Assembly (NCBI GenBank): GCA_902583075.1
Contig: CACHUN010000001.1
Location: forward strand, 186,001 to 250,000
Reading direction: 5' to 3'
DNA: 64,000 nt
Origin: an uncultured Pelagibacteraceae bacterium
Lineage (GTDB): Bacteria > Pseudomonadota > Alphaproteobacteria > Pelagibacterales > Pelagibacteraceae
Shown here: positions 17,364 through 25,238 of the stretch, one piece after another
Layout of the letters: each line of letters begins with the position of its first letter
Numbering within the stretch: position 1 is the first letter of the stretch
The notes under the pieces: generated by a model
What the model saw: the letters and a program-made list of their open reading frames with translations, nothing else
Database searches by the model: none
What the model was told of the DNA's origin: nothing
Position numbers and translations under genes: made by a program

Positions 17364-17624
17364 ATGAAATATTATGTATATTTAATTTTATCAAAAAATT
17401 GTAATAAATATACATCCTATGTGGGATACACAAATAATGTAAGAAAAAGGTTATATTTACACAATAACTCAAAAGGTGCTAAATTCACTAAGGGTAAACA
17501 CTGGTTATTAGCTTACACAAAACAATATAAAAACAAAATTCTTGCAATGAAAGAGGAGTATAAATTAAAAAAAGATATTAAATTAAGATCTAAAATTAAA
17601 AGAGATTTCATAAATAATAACTAA
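17364..17624 (+). CDS. Single-domain GIY-YIG endonuclease family protein
   Basis: 86 residues. The motif pair appears as YYVYLI..(GIY) and SYVGYTNNVRKRLYLHN (YIG plus the catalytic Arg), then AKFTKGKHWLL and an EEYKLKKD segment with the metal-binding Glu. This is the small UPF0213/YhbQ-like form with no extra DNA-binding domain. Its stop overlaps the start of the following glycosyltransferase by one base, so the two are probably co-transcribed. The role is unknown; repair or DNA-exchange functions are guesses. Confidence 0.8.
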   Translation: MKYYVYLILSKNCNKYTSYVGYTNNVRKRLYLHNNSKGAKFTKGKHWLLAYTKQYKNKILAMKEEYKLKKDIKLRSKIKRDFINNN

Positions 17625-19738
17625 TGAAAATTGTAACACTCCTACCTTACAAAGAAGATTATACTCCCAGATATTCTGGCGCTGTATCAATACATGTTTC
17701 AAGTCTTATTAAATTTTCTAAATTTAAAAAATCAATGTATGTTTACGGTAATACCACTAATAGAAAATTTTTATCAGATAATTATAATAATGTTAAAATT
17801 AAAAAAAGTTTACTAAAAAGTAATAATAAAGCATATTTAGAAAAATTTATTAAACTCAATATTAATAATCCACCTGATATTATTGAGATTCATAATCGAC
17901 CTTCTTACATAGCTTTATTAAAGAAAAAATTAAATTCAAAAGTAATTATTTATTTCCATAATAATCCATTACTTTTATCGGGATCAAAAACTAAAACAGA
18001 ACGCTTATTTTTGTTAGAAAATTGTGATTATATTTTTTTTAATAGTAATTGGACAAAAAATAAATTTTTTGATGATATTTCTGAAACTCAACATATATCA
18101 AAATTTGGAATATGTTATCAATCTACTAAAAAATCTTTAGTTAATCTAAAAAATAAAGAAAAAATTATTTCTTTTGTTGGTAAGCTTAATTCAGCAAAAG
18201 GTTATGATATTTTTGGACAATCAATAGTAAAAATTTTAAATGAATTTCCAGACTGGAAATGCATTATTGTTGGAGATGAACCTAGAGAAAAACATATATT
18301 TAAAAATAAAAATTTAAAAATTTATAATTTTAAAGAAAATAATTTTGTTTTAAATCTTTTAAAAAAAACTAGCATATTTGTTGCATGTTCTAGATGGGAA
18401 GAGCCTTTTGGTAGATCAAGTCTTGAGGCTTGCAGTATGGGTTGTGCCACAATTATTACTAATAGAGGTGGCTTAATAGAGACTACCAAACATCCTATAA
18501 TAATTGATAGTTTAGATGTCTATACACTTTATAAATCAATAAAAACTTTAATAGTTAATCCAAAAATAAGAAAGAAAGCTCAAAAGCTAAATTATAAATC
18601 TTTCTATTTAACACACGAATACGTATCAAATATAATTGATAGTGTTAGAGAAAAAATACTATCTAATAATGATATTAAAAAAATAAATATTGATAAAAAA
18701 AGTAAGCTTAAAATAATACATGTTACAAATTTTAACTACAGATATTTTGGCAGACTTCAATACAACACCGGTGTTAGGATCAATAATGGTTTAATAAAGA
18801 ATGGCCATAATGTCCTAAGTTTATCAGATAGAGATTTAATCAGTTATACAAAATCTTTCAGGGATCCAACAGGTGAGAAATATTTAAATAAACTTTTAGC
18901 TAAAACTATTGAGAATTTTAAGCCAGACTTACTTCTTATGGGCCATGCGGATCGTATTAATAGTGAAACGTTAAGTTCTGCAAAATTAAAATATCCATAT
19001 TTAAAAATAAGTCAGTGGTTTTTGGATCCTCTATCAAAAAAGGGGCCTGATTATGAAAAAAATAAATTAAGAGTTTCCAATAAAAGCAAAGAATGTGATA
19101 CAACATTTATAACTACCAGTCCCGATGCATTAGATTTTAAGCTTAAAAATTCCTTTTTTTTACCTAATCCATGTGACAAGTCATTAGACAACCTTCAAAA
19201 CTTCAGAAATGATAAAGATTATGATATTTTTTATGCCATTAGCCACGGAGTTCATAGAGGAAATCTTAGAATAGGAAAAAAAGATGAAAGAGAGCAATTT
19301 ATAAATAAACTCGTAAAAAAGTGTGATGGAATAAAATTTGATCTTTATGGATTGTTTGGAAGGCAACCTGTCTGGGGAAATGAGTTTTTAAATAAATTAT
19401 CAAATTCAAAAATGGCTCTTAATTTAAGTAGGGGTAAACCGATTAAATATTATAGTAGTGATAGAATAGCCCAATTAATGGGAAATGGATTGTTAACTTT
19501 TATACACAATGACACTAAATTTAACGATTTTTTTACTGAAAAAGAAATGATTTTTTATAAAAATATTTCTGATTTATCAGAAAAAATTAAAAAATTTAAA
19601 AGAGATAAAAAAAAAGCATCAGAAATAGCTAAAAGAGGATATGAGATATACCACAAACATTTTAATTCATCTGTGGTCTCAAATTACATTATTAATACAA
19701 CATTCGGAATAAATTCTAAATTTTATTGGGATAAATAA
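17624..19738 (+). CDS. Two-domain glycosyltransferase: GT4 fused to a CgeB-like domain
   Basis: 704 residues, about twice the size of one GT-B enzyme. Residues 1 to about 345 form a GT4 protein: YSGAVSIHVSSLIKF at the start, FVGKLNSAKGYDIF, and the donor-site EEPFGRSSLEACSMGCATIITNRGG. Residues from about 360 look like the CgeB/Glyco_trans_1_2 family: IIHVTNFNYRYFGRLQYNTGVRI, DLLLMGHADRI, LNLSRGKPIKYYSSDRIAQLMGNG. It would add two sugars or bring two activities together in cell-surface polysaccharide assembly. The acceptor is unknown. Confidence 0.78.
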   Translation: MKIVTLLPYKEDYTPRYSGAVSIHVSSLIKFSKFKKSMYVYGNTTNRKFLSDNYNNVKIKKSLLKSNNKAYLEKFIKLNINNPPDIIEIHNRPSYIALLKKKLNSKVIIYFHNNPLLLSGSKTKTERLFLLENCDYIFFNSNWTKNKFFDDISETQHISKFGICYQSTKKSLVNLKNKEKIISFVGKLNSAKGYDIFGQSIVKILNEFPDWKCIIVGDEPREKHIFKNKNLKIYNFKENNFVLNLLKKTSIFVACSRWEEPFGRSSLEACSMGCATIITNRGGLIETTKHPIIIDSLDVYTLYKSIKTLIVNPKIRKKAQKLNYKSFYLTHEYVSNIIDSVREKILSNNDIKKINIDKKSKLKIIHVTNFNYRYFGRLQYNTGVRINNGLIKNGHNVLSLSDRDLISYTKSFRDPTGEKYLNKLLAKTIENFKPDLLLMGHADRINSETLSSAKLKYPYLKISQWFLDPLSKKGPDYEKNKLRVSNKSKECDTTFITTSPDALDFKLKNSFFLPNPCDKSLDNLQNFRNDKDYDIFYAISHGVHRGNLRIGKKDEREQFINKLVKKCDGIKFDLYGLFGRQPVWGNEFLNKLSNSKMALNLSRGKPIKYYSSDRIAQLMGNGLLTFIHNDTKFNDFFTEKEMIFYKNISDLSEKIKKFKRDKKKASEIAKRGYEIYHKHFNSSVVSNYIINTTFGINSKFYWDK

Positions 19739-19740
19739 TA

Positions 19741-20730
19741 ATGAAAGTATGTTTTATAGATAAAACAGAATTTCAATATAATTGTAACGATATTAATAAA
19801 CCATTCATACGTGGAGCTGAAAATGTTTTAATAAATCTATCACTAAGTATAAATAAATTAGGTCATAAAGTCGTTGTTTTTAATAATTGCGCACGTGAAT
19901 ATAATTTTAAAAATTATTCATGGTTAAATATTAAAAAAATTAATCCAAAAAATTTTAACTTTGATATTGCAATTTCAAATAATGATACAAAGCTTCTTGA
20001 TTATGTATCGTCAACAAAAAAATATGTGCTATCACACAGTTTACAAAGTATTGAAAAGTTTATAAGAAAAAATCAATTAAAATCATACTTAAAAAATAAA
20101 CCTACTTATTTATTGCTTGGTGATTATCACAAATCAAAAATGTCAAAGTTATTTTCTATATATGGAACTATGATTATAGATTATGGATTAGATGAGATTT
20201 TTACAAATATTTCCATTGAAGATAATGTCGATAATAATCTAGGGATGTTTACTTCAAGAACAGACAGAAATTTAGATATGTTGTTAGATATATGGAAATC
20301 AAATATTTTTCCCAAAAAAAAAGATTTAAAACTTTATATTAGTCCAATTAATGAAAATCTTGAAAATTTTAGGATTTTTAATAGAGAATATGTTGAAAAA
20401 AATGAGTATATAAATCAAATAAATAAATCCAGAGTTATTATACTTCCTGGGCATAAGGCTGAATTATACTGCTTGGCAGCTTCAGAAGCACAAGAGCTTT
20501 GTATACCAGTAGTTACAATGGGCATTGGATCTTTATCAGAAAGAGTAGAGCACAATGTTACAGGGTTAATTGCTAAAAACAAAGATCAGTTTAGTGATTA
20601 TATTATTGATATCTTTTCTAATGATAATTTATGGCTGACTTTTAGAAAAAATCTTCTTTCTAAGAGAGGTGAGAAAACTTGGCATAACGCCTCAAAAAAG
20701 TTTTTGGAAAAAGTAACAAATAATGTGTGA
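19741..20730 (+). CDS. GT4-like glycosyltransferase
   Basis: 329 residues. The N-terminal part has a GT-B-like acceptor domain (FIRGAENVLINLSLSINKLGHKVVVFNN). The C-terminal part has SRVIILPGHKAELYCLAASEAQELCIPVVTMGIGSLSERVEHNVTGLIA, the GT4 donor site with the E-x7-E pattern weakened to KAELYCLAASEA. Two bases after the previous gene and an 8-base overlap with the next put it in the same operon. Donor and acceptor cannot be read from the sequence. Confidence 0.7.
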   Translation: MKVCFIDKTEFQYNCNDINKPFIRGAENVLINLSLSINKLGHKVVVFNNCAREYNFKNYSWLNIKKINPKNFNFDIAISNNDTKLLDYVSSTKKYVLSHSLQSIEKFIRKNQLKSYLKNKPTYLLLGDYHKSKMSKLFSIYGTMIIDYGLDEIFTNISIEDNVDNNLGMFTSRTDRNLDMLLDIWKSNIFPKKKDLKLYISPINENLENFRIFNREYVEKNEYINQINKSRVIILPGHKAELYCLAASEAQELCIPVVTMGIGSLSERVEHNVTGLIAKNKDQFSDYIIDIFSNDNLWLTFRKNLLSKRGEKTWHNASKKFLEKVTNNV

Positions 20731-21748
20731 CAAAATTTTAATATTAAAAAACGATAGAGCAGGTGATCTATTTACATCTTTAAAACTAATATCTTCACTA
20801 ATTAGTAGATACAGTAGTATAAAAATATATTTATCAGAATTAAATGCAGGCTTTTCTTTTTTTTTTAAAAATAAAAGAGTCGAAGTAGTAAATTTTAATT
20901 TATCTATAATTGATAAAATATTAATTTTTCTTGATATTTTAATGAATAATTATAATAAAGTTTATATATTAACACCGAAGAGTTTCTATTTCATTTTACC
21001 TTTTATATTTCGTAATATTAAATTTTATTCGATTGTTTATGAAAGTGAAAAGAAATTAAGACCATCAAAATATCTAAGAAAATATTTATATAAATACAAA
21101 ATTATTTATAGAAATAAAATAAATTCTAAAAGTTATCGAGATTTACAATTAGATCTGTTAGAAAATAAAGAGAAATATGATGAAAATTTTTTATCCTTAA
21201 ATATTCCCAAAATTAATAAAAACCTTAAAAATATTCTCCCTAAAAAATTTATTTTCTTTCAATTTAGATATCAGTTTTTTAATAAATTAGGTTGGGGGAC
21301 AAAGGAATTCGATTATCTTATATCTGTAATCCATAAAAAATATGAATACGTTTTGTTTTCCTCAGATATAGAAAGCAATAAGGTTTCTGAAAATTTTGAT
21401 TCTTATTTTAAAAAAAATTATTCAATTATAGACACAAAAAATTATTTACAGACTAAAAATTTAATTAATCAAAAAACATTCTATCTTGAAAAAGTAAATG
21501 CACTCAATTTGTTCTACATTCTAAAAGAGTCAGAAATAAATGTAGCTAAAGAAGGTATAATTGGACATTTATCATATTTCCATAAAAAAAAATGTCATAA
21601 TTTATTCAATTTTGAGATTAAAACTAAAAGAGATGTTTATCACCAAAAAATAAGTTATTCTGAATGGTGCAAAGGTATGAATTTTACTTTTTCATTTTTA
21701 AATAATGATATAGAAAAATCAGCAAGGAAAATTTTTAAACATATTTAA
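20723..21748 (+). CDS. GT9/heptosyltransferase-like protein
   Basis: 341 residues. The start CDKILILKNDRAGDLFTSLKLISSLISRY matches the ADP-heptose:LPS heptosyltransferase N-terminus (ILI-x4-D-R-x-GD-x2-x-S-L). A late KEGIIGHLSYFHKKKCHNLF resembles the family's donor-site G-x-SH-x-A region. The middle is poorly conserved and very AT-rich. The context of neighbouring glycosyltransferases fits lipopolysaccharide core or O-chain work. No sugar specificity can be claimed. Confidence 0.6.
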   Translation: MCDKILILKNDRAGDLFTSLKLISSLISRYSSIKIYLSELNAGFSFFFKNKRVEVVNFNLSIIDKILIFLDILMNNYNKVYILTPKSFYFILPFIFRNIKFYSIVYESEKKLRPSKYLRKYLYKYKIIYRNKINSKSYRDLQLDLLENKEKYDENFLSLNIPKINKNLKNILPKKFIFFQFRYQFFNKLGWGTKEFDYLISVIHKKYEYVLFSSDIESNKVSENFDSYFKKNYSIIDTKNYLQTKNLINQKTFYLEKVNALNLFYILKESEINVAKEGIIGHLSYFHKKKCHNLFNFEIKTKRDVYHQKISYSEWCKGMNFTFSFLNNDIEKSARKIFKHI

Positions 21749-21753
21749 TTACA

Positions 21754-22509
21754 ATGTTTTTTATTAATAAATCTTTAGAACGACTTAGTAGACTATTTAG
21801 ACATTTTATTTCCTATGATTTTTCTCTTAATCATAAGTATCAAAACAAGAATCAAGTTACAGATTCCAATACTGTTTTAAGATTGCTTAAGTATAATAAA
21901 TTTGTACCTGAGTATATTATTGATGTTGGTAGTGGTTATGGGCAATGGACAAATAAACTTCTTGAAGTATATCCTTCTTCAAATTTTTTTTTATTTGATG
22001 CTGATATAAGCAATAAACCTAGTTTGGAAAAACTAAAATTAAAATATAAAAACCTAAATTATGAGATATGTCTTTTAACAAATAATGTTGAATATTATAA
22101 TTTTTATAATATGGGTTACGGTTCTTCAATTTTTGAAGAGAATACTAACCACGCTAGAAAAATAGAGAAGATAAAATCAACTACCTTAGATATTGTACTG
22201 CCTTTAGAATTAAAAAATTATTCAAATAATTTGATTAAAATTGATGTACAAGGAGCTGAATTAAAAGTAATTGATGGTTTAAAAAATAATTTAAATTATT
22301 TCGAGGTAATTATATTAGAAGTATCAGTTCATAATTATAATAAGGGTTCACCTCTTTTTAACGAGGTCATGAATTACATGAAAGCGAAGAATTATAGGTT
22401 ATATGATATATTTGATTTAAAAAGACTTGGTGATAATAAGTCTTTTCTTTTACAGTTTGACTGTATTTTTGTCAGAGAAGGATCAAATTTGCTAAATGTT
22501 AAATTTTAA
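21754..22509 (+). CDS. FkbM-family SAM-dependent methyltransferase
   Basis: 251 residues. IIDVGSGYGQWTNKLLEVYP is the SAM-binding motif I. FFLFDADISN is motif II, and LIKIDVQGAELKVIDGL with VIILEVSVHNYN is the FkbM signature. Proteins of this family O-methylate sugars in surface glycans. It ends the glycosyltransferase operon. Its last 11 bases overlap the convergent recombinase gene. Confidence 0.85.
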   Translation: MFFINKSLERLSRLFRHFISYDFSLNHKYQNKNQVTDSNTVLRLLKYNKFVPEYIIDVGSGYGQWTNKLLEVYPSSNFFLFDADISNKPSLEKLKLKYKNLNYEICLLTNNVEYYNFYNMGYGSSIFEENTNHARKIEKIKSTTLDIVLPLELKNYSNNLIKIDVQGAELKVIDGLKNNLNYFEVIILEVSVHNYNKGSPLFNEVMNYMKAKNYRLYDIFDLKRLGDNKSFLLQFDCIFVREGSNLLNVKF

Positions 22510-23416
22510 TGTTATTTAATGCATTATTTTTAAATAAATTTGCCTCTTGTATATATCTTCTTACCATTTGAGTAGTCTTATGACCTGTCATAGCCATAAT
22601 ATTCCTTTCTTCCGCACCTGCTTCTGCTGCTGACGTTGCGAAACCTGATCTTAGGCTATGACCACCATATTTATTTGGATCTAATCCTGCTATTGATATG
22701 TATTTTTTTATTATTAGTGCAACTGATTTATCAGATATATCAAAAATTTTATCTTTTTGAATATTTTTAAAATTAAGCCAATTTTTAAGGTTTATTACTG
22801 GGCAATATTCTGAATTTTTAAAATAGGGGATTGCTTTTATATGTCCTTCTCCCGATTGATCTGTTTTTGATTTTTTAATAAATATTTTTAAACCTTCAGA
22901 AACAAATTCAAGATCTTCATAGTCTATATTTACCAGCTCAGACCTTCTAAAGCCGCCTGAAAACCCAATAAGTATCAAGGATTTATTCCTTATTTTTAAT
23001 AAATCTTTAGTTTCATATTCATCTATTACTTTAATTAACATTTTTAAATCATTGATTAATATAGGTTTTTTTGCTTTTTGATATGAACCATAAACCCTTT
23101 TTATCCCTAACAGATTTTCCATAATTATTGGGTGTTTTGAATCTAAATAATGACCTTTCATTTTGTGAACCACTTTTATAGAAGCAATTTTTCTCTTTAA
23201 AGTGCTGAATTTAGAAGTTTTAGACAAATGAGTTAAGTAAATAGATAATACTTTAGGCTCTGTTGGTAGTGGATTAAGACCATTATTTCTGCAGAATAAT
23301 GTAAAACTTCTAAAATCAGATTCATAAGCTCTTATTGTGTTATTTGACTTTGAATTCTTTAAATTTTTGAGCGTTTCAATTTCTAGCTTTTTAACATCTG
23401 TGATAAGATCTTTCAT
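22499..23416 (-). CDS. Tyrosine recombinase (phage-integrase family)
   Basis: 305 residues. An N-terminal SAM-like core-binding domain (about 10-110) is followed by a catalytic domain with all active residues: Arg157 in GGFRRSEL, Lys184 in SKTDQSG, His253 and Arg256 in GGHSLRSGF, His279 in TGHKTT and the nucleophile Tyr288 in VRRYIQE. It looks functional. It is not the usual XerC/XerD neighbourhood. A perfect 10-bp inverted repeat lies 4 bases upstream of its start codon. It overlaps the 3' end of the FkbM gene, marking the boundary between the polysaccharide cluster and an accessory segment. Confidence 0.93.
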   Translation of the reverse strand: MKDLITDVKKLEIETLKNLKNSKSNNTIRAYESDFRSFTLFCRNNGLNPLPTEPKVLSIYLTHLSKTSKFSTLKRKIASIKVVHKMKGHYLDSKHPIIMENLLGIKRVYGSYQKAKKPILINDLKMLIKVIDEYETKDLLKIRNKSLILIGFSGGFRRSELVNIDYEDLEFVSEGLKIFIKKSKTDQSGEGHIKAIPYFKNSEYCPVINLKNWLNFKNIQKDKIFDISDKSVALIIKKYISIAGLDPNKYGGHSLRSGFATSAAEAGAEERNIMAMTGHKTTQMVRRYIQEANLFKNNALNNIKI

Positions 23417-23497: not shown

Positions 23498-23662
23498 ATG
23501 CCTAAATATGTATTAATCGGTCTGATTGTTGTTATTGGAACATTTCTAATTATGAATTACTGGCCAAAATTAAAAGAACAAACAAAAAATCGTATTTTAA
23601 TGATTATTTTTGGCATATTTTTTATAAGTATTTTTGTTTTGCTATTTTTATTAATGTTTTGA
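23498..23662 (+). CDS. Small two-span membrane protein
   Basis: 54 residues starting MPKYVLIGLIVVIGTFLIMNYW. Two hydrophobic helices (about 4-20 and 34-54) are joined by a basic loop (PKLKEQTKNR). No family is recognised. The GAGG that would serve the next gene as ribosome site overlaps this gene's TGA stop, so the two are probably translationally coupled. That coupling and the helix-turn-helix hydrophobicity pattern are the main reasons to regard it as real. Confidence 0.55.
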   Translation: MPKYVLIGLIVVIGTFLIMNYWPKLKEQTKNRILMIIFGIFFISIFVLLFLLMF

Positions 23663-23668
23663 GGTTAA

Positions 23669-24142
23669 TTGATAGATATTATTAGTATTTTAGTTGCTGG
23701 GATATTTTCATGCATAATTCTTGATATTCTAGGTTATTTACTCAAATTGATGGGTATTCCAGAACCATCGTGGGGAATTGTTGGAAGATGGACTTATTAT
23801 ATGCTTAAAAATGCTACTTTTTATAACCCAAATATTGCTCATATGCCTAATTTTAGGTATGAAGTTTTACTTGGTTGGATTTTTCACTATTATGTATCGA
23901 TTTGTTGGGCTGTAATCTATTATTTTTGTTTTTTAATGGTAGGTATAAAAATGACATATTTTTCAGGCTTTATATTTGGAGCTCTCACAACACTAGCTCC
24001 ATTACTGATATTTCTACCATTTACAGGACAGGGAGTGTTTGCAAATAAGACTGGAATACCCATTAAAACATCAATTATGTTTCTAATCAGACATTCAATT
24101 TATGGAATTGCTATGTATGAAGGTTTTAGATGGTTTAGTTAA
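23669..24142 (+). CDS. DUF2938-like integral membrane protein
   Basis: 157 residues from a TTG start preceded by GAGG. It has about four hydrophobic segments, with conserved-looking PEPSWGIVGRWTYYM near 29-43, a VLLGWIFHYYVSICWAVIYY segment and FGALTTLAPLLIFLPF. This pattern resembles the DUF2938 membrane family, whose function is unknown. The 54-residue membrane gene just upstream may be a partner. Confidence 0.6.
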   Translation: MIDIISILVAGIFSCIILDILGYLLKLMGIPEPSWGIVGRWTYYMLKNATFYNPNIAHMPNFRYEVLLGWIFHYYVSICWAVIYYFCFLMVGIKMTYFSGFIFGALTTLAPLLIFLPFTGQGVFANKTGIPIKTSIMFLIRHSIYGIAMYEGFRWFS

Positions 24143-24201
24143 AGCTTTAGATTAAGTTATCCCCATTATTCAACCCTGTGAAAAACTAAGTATATTCAAC
24201 G

Positions 24202-24215
24202 ATAAAGTGATACAT
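24202..24215. repeat. 14-bp direct repeat, left copy
   Basis: ATAAAGTGATACAT occurs here and again, identical and in the same orientation, at 25208-25221, about 1.0 kb apart. The two copies bracket the structured RNA, ogt and the long non-coding stretch. The left copy also overlaps the weak -35 candidate of the RNA gene. Element ends, duplicated insertion sites or chance are all possible. Confidence 0.4.
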
Positions 24216-24243
24216 ACAACCTACTCTATCTGATATTTTCTAA

Positions 24244-24433
24244 AATGAATTAAGAGGCAACTCTTAACTGACCATCTGGGGAAAAACCGAGAGGTTCAAG
24301 CCCAGAGGGCAGAAAGCCTTGCAGAGTAGCGCTAAAATTGTAAGGTGGACGGCATGGCGGTAGCGCATACAACGACGTGCCAAAAACTACTGTTCTTTGT
24401 ACCTGAAAAGGTGCAAGGAAACAGGGTTTTTTT
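24244..24433 (+). ncRNA. Unidentified structured RNA gene of about 190 nt
   Basis: No reading frame explains this stretch, which is clearly richer in G and C than its surroundings. It contains: a 7-bp hairpin with a GCAA loop (24250-24267); a 5-6-bp stem (275-280 with 301-306 of 24xxx) enclosing an AACC/GGTT hairpin with a GAGA loop; a GGC-AGAAA-GCC hairpin (24308-24318); and two helices that cross each other, TTGTA 24338-24342 with TACAA 24368-24372 and GGCAT 24351-24355 with GTGCC 24377-24381, which is a pseudoknot. It ends in a strong intrinsic terminator. Diagnostic motifs of RNase P, tmRNA, SRP, 6S or common riboswitches were not found. The 5' end is estimated; a weak promoter (GATACA 24209, GATATT 24232) fits it. 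Confidence 0.7.
24390..24433 (+). terminator. Intrinsic terminator of the structured RNA
   Basis: A stem of 15 pairs with one bulged A (24390-24404 with 24409-24424, including two G-U pairs) is capped by a GAAA tetraloop. It is followed by GG and seven T (24427-24433). It is the strongest hairpin-plus-U-tract seen in the window. The ATG of ogt begins only five bases after the U-tract. Confidence 0.85.
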
Positions 24434-24438
24434 CATTT

Positions 24439-24714
24439 ATGATCCTTAAAGGTACAAAATTTCAATTAAAAGTATGGAAATACCTTAAATCTATCCCTAA
24501 AGGTGAATTAAGGACATATTCTCAAGTAGCAATAGCAATCAAAAAGCCAAAAGCAGTAAGAGCTGTAGCAAATGCCATAGGAAAAAATCCTTATGCTCCA
24601 AAAATACCTTGTCATCGGGTAATAAGGTCAGATGGCTCTTTAGGTGGTTATTCAGGTAAAGGCGGGATAAATACCAAGAGAAAATTGCTAAAATTAGAAG
24701 GTATTTTGCTCTAA
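24439..24714 (+). CDS. ogt: Methylated-DNA--protein-cysteine methyltransferase, minimal form
   Basis: 91 residues, only the DNA-binding/active-site domain. It reverses O6-alkylguanine by moving the alkyl group to Cys58 in PCHRVI; presence of Cys, not Trp, separates it from alkyltransferase-like ATL proteins. FQLKVWKYLKSIPKGELRTYSQVA and GGYSGKGGINTKRKLLKLEG are family segments. It lacks the N-terminal domain of Ada-C/Ogt. The ATG at 24439 was chosen because the family motif starts there. No Shine-Dalgarno is visible, and a terminator lies directly upstream, so its expression is puzzling. Confidence 0.88.
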   Translation: MILKGTKFQLKVWKYLKSIPKGELRTYSQVAIAIKKPKAVRAVANAIGKNPYAPKIPCHRVIRSDGSLGGYSGKGGINTKRKLLKLEGILL

Positions 24715-25238
24715 AAATGTCAAATACCAACGTTTTTTTATAAATATACAATATTTAGTATTGATTTTATAATATCGCCTATAAGTTGCACTGCAAAATT
24801 ACAAATGCTTAAAATAGACCCAATTTTGGGCTTTTAAACGGTATATTCGAATATTGCAGAGCTATTTCAAAATCTCCTTTTTCCCCTAAAAATTTAATTA
24901 TGATTATTTAAAAAAACTTTAAAAAAATCTCTTTGAAACATGTAATTATCAAAATATTGGCATATTTGCTTGTTTTTTAGTTATTTATCACTAAATTTTA
25001 GTAATTCTAATTTTATTTTAAAACTGGTATTTATTCCCCACTCTATTCTCATCAGATCTTATTTAATTTGGAAAAATTTATGAATTAATCTATTAAAAAT
25101 AAGACTTTTTTTAAGGTATTAATTGCTAAGATAAAAAAATGAAAAATATTCTATAATATAATCAATTTTAAAAAAAGTATGAAATTTCAATTATATATAA
25201 TATAAACATAAAGTGATACATTAATATATTAGTAAATG
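24715..25238. other. Long non-coding, very AT-rich stretch
   Basis: About 520 bases without a convincing gene on either strand, the longest such gap in the window. It holds a 12-bp perfect palindrome ATATTCGAATAT (24843-24854), a weak CCCA/TGGG hairpin before CTTTT (24819-24835) that may terminate ogt, a TTGCA-C-TGCAA repeat near 24785, and the right direct-repeat copy near its end. Nothing else is recognisable. It may be decayed DNA left by an insertion or hold an unseen RNA. Confidence 0.6.
25208..25221. repeat. 14-bp direct repeat, right copy
   Basis: Identical copy of ATAAAGTGATACAT at 24202-24215, located 18 bases before the stop of the DMT transporter gene. The flanks differ on both sides, so the identity ends at exactly 14 bases. 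Confidence 0.4.

Follow-up and report, generated by a model that had tools for sequence, protein, structure and literature searches.

IMES-2 RNA of SAR11 bacteria: an RNA gene with a probable loop–loop kissing contact and a predicted promoter carrying DnaA-like sites

SAR11 bacteria rank with the most abundant marine cells and have few regulators, and the RNAs known as IMES are said to be abundant in marine metatranscriptomes. Another free-standing structured RNA, 6S RNA, is about 180–190 nt in length and folds as a long rod with a central bubble. The IMES-2 RNA motif (Rfam RF02035) was reportedly described by Weinberg et al. in 2009 (Nature 462:656). Our literature search for IMES-2 and IMES-1 returned no paper on the RNA, the term 'IMES-2' appearing in PMC6962438, and searches on 6S RNA in Pelagibacter and on DnaA in SAR11 gave no title on IMES-2 among the matches listed. 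For Candidatus Pelagibacter ubique, the accessible part of a structured-RNA survey (PMC2704228) reports tmRNA, SRP RNA, and RNase P RNA, together with candidates such as the SAR11_0636 element, a three-stem junction RNA; IMES-2 is not named in Table 1 of that source. Kissing loops, some of them covarying, are found in the bacterial non-coding RNAs GOLLD, ROOL, and OLE, according to the available portion of PMC12286853.

The locus described here lies in a window of 64,000 nucleotides, the whole stretch of DNA that was analyzed, from an uncultured Pelagibacteraceae bacterium; coordinates are collected in Table 1. An initial sequence-only reading of the window had called the locus an unidentified structured RNA gene with its own terminator, and the gene and the terminator both stand; it is identity that has changed. 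The Rfam comparison that this reading had suggested gives a clear match to a known family, RF02035, the very outcome it had named as refuting the label 'unidentified'; the match is complete over model positions 1–141 of 141, and its 164 bits far exceed the gathering threshold of 54.7. Over the full model, the motif and the window RNA share their sequence and the four stems, no feature of the window RNA excludes membership, and we regard the assignment to this already catalogued family as practically certain. A scan of the whole window at gathering thresholds yielded IMES-2, four tRNAs, and nothing else, in agreement with the earlier reading, which saw no hallmarks of RNase P, tmRNA, SRP, 6S, or common riboswitches; the window has no Rfam match to 6S, tmRNA, RNase P, or SRP RNA, and these identities were rejected. 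Additionally, the Rfam matches to 23500–25000, taken up to E 10, include no ribozyme family. The reported G+C enrichment of the roughly 190-nt stretch is borne out, at 46% for the RNA region vs 26.7% for 1 kb on each side. The minimum free energy is −72.6 kcal/mol (z −6.8; equally stable shuffles, 0/200), and the predicted fold contains hairpins 1, 2, and 3, the outer part of hairpin 4, and the GAAA-capped terminator, which is contained in the last 50 bases of 24244–24433 and lies beyond the Rfam model. What the present analysis adds to IMES-2 is a predicted promoter, a terminator, a kissing contact, the neighboring genes, and three diverged members (L031, L032, and L114).

Table 1. Features of the IMES-2 locus and its neighbors (window coordinates)
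Feature	Position	Strand	Basis or remark
Tyrosine recombinase, PF00589	22499–23416	−	neighbor in window
DUF2938 gene	23669–24142		neighbor in window
Two abutting DnaA-box-like 9-mers, TTATCCCCA + TTATTCAAC	24157–24174	+	13/16 defined positions of doubled TTATNCACA
Predicted promoter box, CAAC-n4-AAGTGATAC	24197–24213	+	conserved letters in 79 distinct loci
Predicted extended −10 (TG-n-TATTTT overlap)	24231–24239	+	G24232 in 75/79, T24234 in 79/79
IMES-2 RNA, conserved part	24243–24383	+	RF02035 match, 164 bits, E 6.7e-45
Hairpin 1, 7 bp, GCAA loop	24250–24267	+	100% of cells paired; 5/7 pairs changed on both sides
Hairpin 2, A-rich internal loop, inner GAGA-capped stem	24268–24312	+	both-side changes in 7/11 outer and 4/4 inner pairs
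Hairpin 3, 8 bp, 15-nt loop	24316–24346	+	both-side changes in 8/8 pairs; 95.5% of cells paired
Kissing helix, loop 3 strand GCGCU	24329–24333	+	complementarity, covariation
Hairpin 4, 9 positions	24351–24381	+	both-side changes in 5/9 pairs
Kissing helix, loop 4 strand AGCGC	24362–24366	+	complementarity, covariation
Intrinsic terminator, 15-bp hairpin, GAAA loop, T7 at 24427–24433	24390–24433	+	predicted fold
Methyltransferase gene (ogt type), O6-methylguanine methyltransferase DNA-binding domain, PF01035	24439–24714	same strand as RNA	

The consensus secondary structure of IMES-2 is kept with compensatory changes among the relatives of the window RNA. A plain MAFFT alignment of 45 sequences has 25 of the 45 named pairs changed on both sides, a count that becomes 32/45 among 30 sequences that include diverged ones. 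With these 30 sequences, none of 500 shuffles attains the nested structure on any of five measures, and sliding the structure drops the paired cells from 92% to 33–43%; with 90 distinct sequences, the outcome is the same (32/45 pairs changed on both sides; 0/500 shuffles on any measure). Fitting of both the 30- and the 90-sequence alignments was guided by the nested structure, which favors the nested stems; the kissing pairs lie outside that model. Most of the stems read from the single sequence hold up in this comparison: the GCAA-capped 7-bp hairpin, the nested stem with a GAGA loop, and the helix 24351–24355/24377–24381, which is part of hairpin 4, are all present, and so is the GAAA-capped 15-bp terminator with its run of seven T, which lies outside the alignment. 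In the covariation check proposed with that reading, every consensus stem within the alignment has compensatory changes. One position of hairpin 4 never forms a standard pair, being G-A in the window and A-G in three other copies (L033, L137, and L177).

Two of the proposed elements fare differently. A pseudoknot had been drawn from crossing helices, and a crossing interaction does exist, but between loops 3 and 4 and not at 24338–24342/24368–24372. The latter helix pairs in 62.9% of cells among 30 sequences, which 42/500 shuffles equal; its double changes and covariation score are equaled by 218/500 shuffles, and its 5′ bases are already used in hairpin 3. A small GGC/GCC hairpin (taken as 24308–24310/24316–24318) was likewise given up: 88/500 shuffles equal its 85.6% of paired cells and 49/500 its covariation score, slid versions covary equally, and the GGC pairs in the barely variable closing stem of hairpin 2.

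Complementarity between loops 3 and 4 extends over four to six pairs in 93/93 aligned sequences that hold both loops. Pair counts were taken from 90 distinct sequences, which became 87 once three with missing letters had been set aside. The first of the five core pairs is GC in 71 sequences and UA in three, and is unpaired in 13/87; the second is CG in 83 and UA in four; the third is GC in 80 and AU in seven; and the last two are invariant. In other words, three kissing pairs change on both sides, and two of them, the second and third, do so with no mismatch and no one-sided change. A possible sixth pair is formed in only 7/87 sequences. Scored alone in 30 sequences, the kissing helix beats 500/500 shuffles on paired cells, double-change cells, and covariation score, while shuffles reach it in 13/500 cases on double-change pairs and in 375/500 on pair types. 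The variant loop words are AGCACU/AGUGCU (L031, L032, L069, and L114), GUGCU/AGCAC (L111), AGUACU/AGUACU (L033, L137, and L177), and UCGCU/AGCGA (L112, L164, and L187), and the GCAC/GUGC, GUGC/GCAC, GUAC/GUAC, and UCGCU/AGCGA forms are spread over different genera; GCGC stands in both loops of most copies, so it is a minority of lineages that supplies the covariation. We are confident of a kissing contact between hairpins 3 and 4, and it may not be new relative to the original IMES-2 description. The fold of IMES-2, as deduced from these comparisons, is thus four hairpins plus a helix between loop 3 and loop 4. One copy (L165, 263–380) stops within loop 3 and is followed by unrelated DNA, through either an assembly join or a broken gene.

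Molecular questions follow from such a contact; does loop 3 meet loop 4 of its own molecule, or that of another copy? Self-complementarity is lacking in the GCAC/GUGC forms, and in those lineages the partner of loop 3 is loop 4 rather than its own copy. The complementarity found in every sequence with both loops also suits a contact that joins molecules, in which one copy offers loop 3 and a second copy loop 4, in a closed two-fold dimer or a ring, and copies of GOLLD, ROOL, and OLE are joined by kissing loops in the accessible portion of PMC12286853. We consider such joining of IMES-2 copies possible but somewhat unlikely. In a rough rigid-helix calculation, crude as it is and containing no dimer, the contact within one molecule was sterically possible in 58/60 runs, so a dimer is not needed, and this rigid-body geometry produced nothing against a monomer. 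The likeness of GOLLD, ROOL, and OLE to IMES-2 is that of non-coding bacterial RNAs with kissing loops; they are, however, far larger and form cages or dimers (PMC12286853, accessible portion).

The neighboring genes bear on whether IMES-2 is a gene in its own right or an appendage of something else. In the window's genus, the methyltransferase gene follows directly downstream on the same strand in 63/63 fetched loci, an arrangement that would fit a 5′ regulatory leader of that gene. In three other genera, a gene of opposite strand lies downstream (15/16 loci of g5/g6 and 2/2 of g2, hence 17/18), while the RNA and its predicted promoter persist; this excludes a leader as the general role and leaves the leader reading of the window's gene very improbable. 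The same downstream gene across the family, as would mark a riboswitch or cis-leader, was not found. Because the promoter and, for the most part, the terminator are kept beside differing neighbors, we conclude with high confidence that IMES-2 is a free-standing RNA gene and not a leader. In the window itself, the first ATG of the methyltransferase gene comes 5 nt past the terminator T run (24427–24441), so expression of that gene would depend on read-through or on a promoter inside the RNA gene.

The sequence-only reading had also offered an element-encoded RNA as one of its possibilities. An integrase is present in the fetched stretch at 54/63 loci of the window's genus, several of whose other stretches, including the window's own (L001), are short, and at 0/18 in other genera. 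No repeat of at least 15 nt of 24151–24440 occurs elsewhere in the window, where the only repeat noted is one 14-mer at 25208, and blastn against phage and plasmid collections gave no IMES-2 match. An integrase-linked element or attachment site was rejected on the missing repeat and on the restriction of the integrase neighbor to one genus, and phage or plasmid carriage on the lack of a match in either collection; a mobile-element origin of IMES-2 is unlikely. The glycosyltransferase and FkbM-methyltransferase genes of 17624–23416 end at the tyrosine recombinase that adjoins IMES-2, and this stretch resembles the border of a variable surface-polysaccharide island of the window's genus.

Conservation upstream of the RNA was followed in 79 distinct upstream regions of 81 loci. 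C24197, G24207, G24209, A24210, and T24211 are invariant among them, and the consensus consists of an extended −10 (TG in 75/79, then T in 79/79) and a box, CAAY-n4-ARGTGATAC. The distance from the start of GTGATA to the start of TGnT is 24 bp in 60/75 loci and 23 bp in 8/75. The box pattern has 10 matches in 12 genomes, nine of which bear IMES-2; seven matches are at IMES-2 (those of G048 and G090 are missed), and the three others are inside coding frames of 429–525 codons. At the other end of the gene, a T run preceded by a strong hairpin (at least as stable as −15 kcal/mol) is present in 63/80 distinct 3′ regions and in 0/210 controls, this rule failing in 17/80. A simple pattern scanner run over 24100–24500 reported neither a sigma-70 promoter nor a terminator. 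From the conservation, we predict a dedicated promoter at 24157–24239, a transcription start near 24246–24248, and termination at 24433, which would give a transcript of about 187 nt. Fourteen bases of the promoter region (ATAAAGTGATACAT) recur at 25208–25221 in non-coding DNA, there without the CAAY half, either by chance or as a second site of the same regulator.

Farther upstream are the two abutting 9-mers, which resemble TTATNCACA, the DnaA box consensus as given in the accessible part of PMC5835720. Six of the 81 loci were left out of the scoring (duplicates, no recognized box, or too short); the 75 distinct regions that remain score at least 11 of 16 in 75 cases, at least 12 in 69, and at least 13 in 44, vs 129, 16, and 0 of 2647 random control stretches of the same loci, a contrast that is not a clean probability because the doubled consensus was picked after reading these upstream regions and because the regions are related. 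The matches are degenerate, with A or C at position 7 and a variable position 9. Measured from the start of the tandem to GTGATA, the spacing is 41–43 bp in 25 loci and 49–53 bp in 50, with none in the gap; the two spacings differ by roughly one helical turn, as expected of a protein facing the polymerase, and they count as few events rather than 75, since related loci inherit their spacings by descent. Near-matches to the DnaA box thus stand as candidate sites, judged by their letters, at 75/75 distinct loci in two phased spacings. A strict form of the tandem pattern has seven matches in 34 genomes vs two for the pattern read backwards; the seven are IMES-2 promoters in 5/10 bearers and two places in frames of 405 and 549 codons, so in these genomes IMES-2 has the only promoters at which the strict, helically phased box occurs.

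What might such a gene do? We propose that IMES-2 acts in trans via its fold, either holding a protein or pairing with its own copies, and that a DNA-binding regulator at the tandem site would time its synthesis. A trans-acting folded RNA is suggested because the unit is free-standing and its conserved loops are used in the kissing contact; the use of the most conserved loop letters in that contact also argues against a role as an mRNA leader or by simple antisense pairing. Action through the fold we hold to be fairly probable, and timing by a regulator bound to the tandem boxes is likewise probable. Since the two 9-mers both fit TTATNCACA, DnaA heads the candidates, and it would link IMES-2 to the replication cycle; our naming of DnaA as the regulator is tentative. 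A still fuller picture, in which a DnaA-gated promoter would time the kissing fold, possibly as a dimer, to replication and make it a global signal in SAR11, appears unlikely. Taken as a whole, an IMES-2 gene with a kissing fold, a dedicated promoter, action in trans, and a regulator at the tandem site would be the best explanation of the locus, and we place it just on the probable side.

The tandem boxes could have another purpose, namely replication control by titration or reactivation of DnaA, with the RNA gene a mere neighbor or its transcription their switch. DARS1 and DARS2 of Escherichia coli came to light among DnaA-box pairs and are located in promoter regions (PMC5835720, accessible part). 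The phased spacing to the IMES-2 core promoter, kept in 75/75 loci, points instead to control of that promoter, and we judge the replication-control role decidedly improbable. Sampled GC skew near the gene, used as a test for a replication origin, gave no clear pattern and decides nothing. IMES-2 is conserved in about half of the sampled SAR11 genomes, and a promoter that suggests a regulator, together with a loop contact open to mutation and compensation, makes this orphan Rfam entry testable in cultured strains.

IMES-2 is present as a single copy in the window's own genome, which is 84% complete. Within the order, RF02035 matched 81/197 genomes, all 81 above the cut-off, and R1, our own model derived from 45 sequences, found IMES-2 in 197/397; each genome among the hits of these searches gave a single match. 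A class-wide search found it in 3/385 genomes, all three of the window's family; that search scored only eight candidates per genome, and its misses include two genomes of the window's genus. Among named contigs, an 18-base core pattern occurs in at least 120 stretches; among the matches listed (80 of 120), 80/80 are titled Pelagibacteraceae, Candidatus Pelagibacter, or Pelagibacterales, that is, SAR11, in keeping with the occurrence of IMES-2 in marine bacteria. A second model, R2, matches all 80 listed contigs, with L138, L165, and L176 cut or broken. The one viral contig (L256) that also holds the 18-base pattern was rejected, having no R2 match; the pattern there falls within a long opposite-strand frame, a gene that we take to encode a tail sheath.

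The diverged members of the family are those of G001 and G007 (L031 and L032) and of G301 (L114). Further diverged copies were sought in genomes without a hit by R1, R2, and a promoter-plus-core pattern. The pattern matched in 7/40 genomes, including three known copies and missing one known bearer, and R2 matched in 8/40, including two known copies; the remaining candidates were rejected as lying in open frames of at least 250 codons, vs 46–64 codons at four true copies, the exceptions (L131, L133, and L135) straddling the end of the gene to which L132 also belongs. The first step of the genome search is lossy, R1 having failed to report the true copies of G001 and G007, so the absence of IMES-2 from a genome is not proven; with about half of the searched genomes lacking a detected copy, IMES-2 is not needed by all. 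In an rpoB tree of 29 chosen genomes, 13 with IMES-2 and 16 without (G144 yielded no rpoB and G032 a partial one), the presence label requires six changes, and starred branches impose at least five of these. Several deep branches of the family carry IMES-2, and 13 of the 16 rows without it fall within one terminal clade of 16 rows. This tree favors an ancestral IMES-2 gene with repeated loss; diverged copies may have been missed, and gains are possible.

The comparison with 6S RNA can now be made. The 6S model RF00013 has no match in the window and none in 40/40 genomes of the order, while it responds in 5/14 control genomes, including Caulobacter vibrioides, four of the five being over the cut-off; the SAR11 order may lack 6S RNA or carry a very diverged one. 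Could IMES-2 stand in for it, binding RNA polymerase or another central machine? Both are free-standing structured RNAs of about 180–190 nt, and '6S RNA' is absent from the accessible part of the Ca. P. ubique survey (PMC2704228), just as it is undetected in our 40 genomes. The folds differ, however, IMES-2 being four short hairpins with a kissing contact and quite unlike the 6S rod, and many genomes without a 6S match are also without a detected IMES-2, where IMES-2 accordingly is no replacement. We consider the stand-in role quite improbable, and the missing 6S match in 40/40 genomes is not evidence for it. The SAR11_0636 element and other Ca. P. ubique candidates resemble IMES-2 as candidate free-standing RNAs between variable neighbors, although SAR11_0636 is described as a three-stem junction at a different locus (PMC2704228, accessible part). 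In Table 1 of the same source, 626974–627168 of Ca. P. ubique is an unlabeled, relatively GC-rich intergenic region of 195 bp beside recA with 1168 metagenome matches, possibly another RNA gene.
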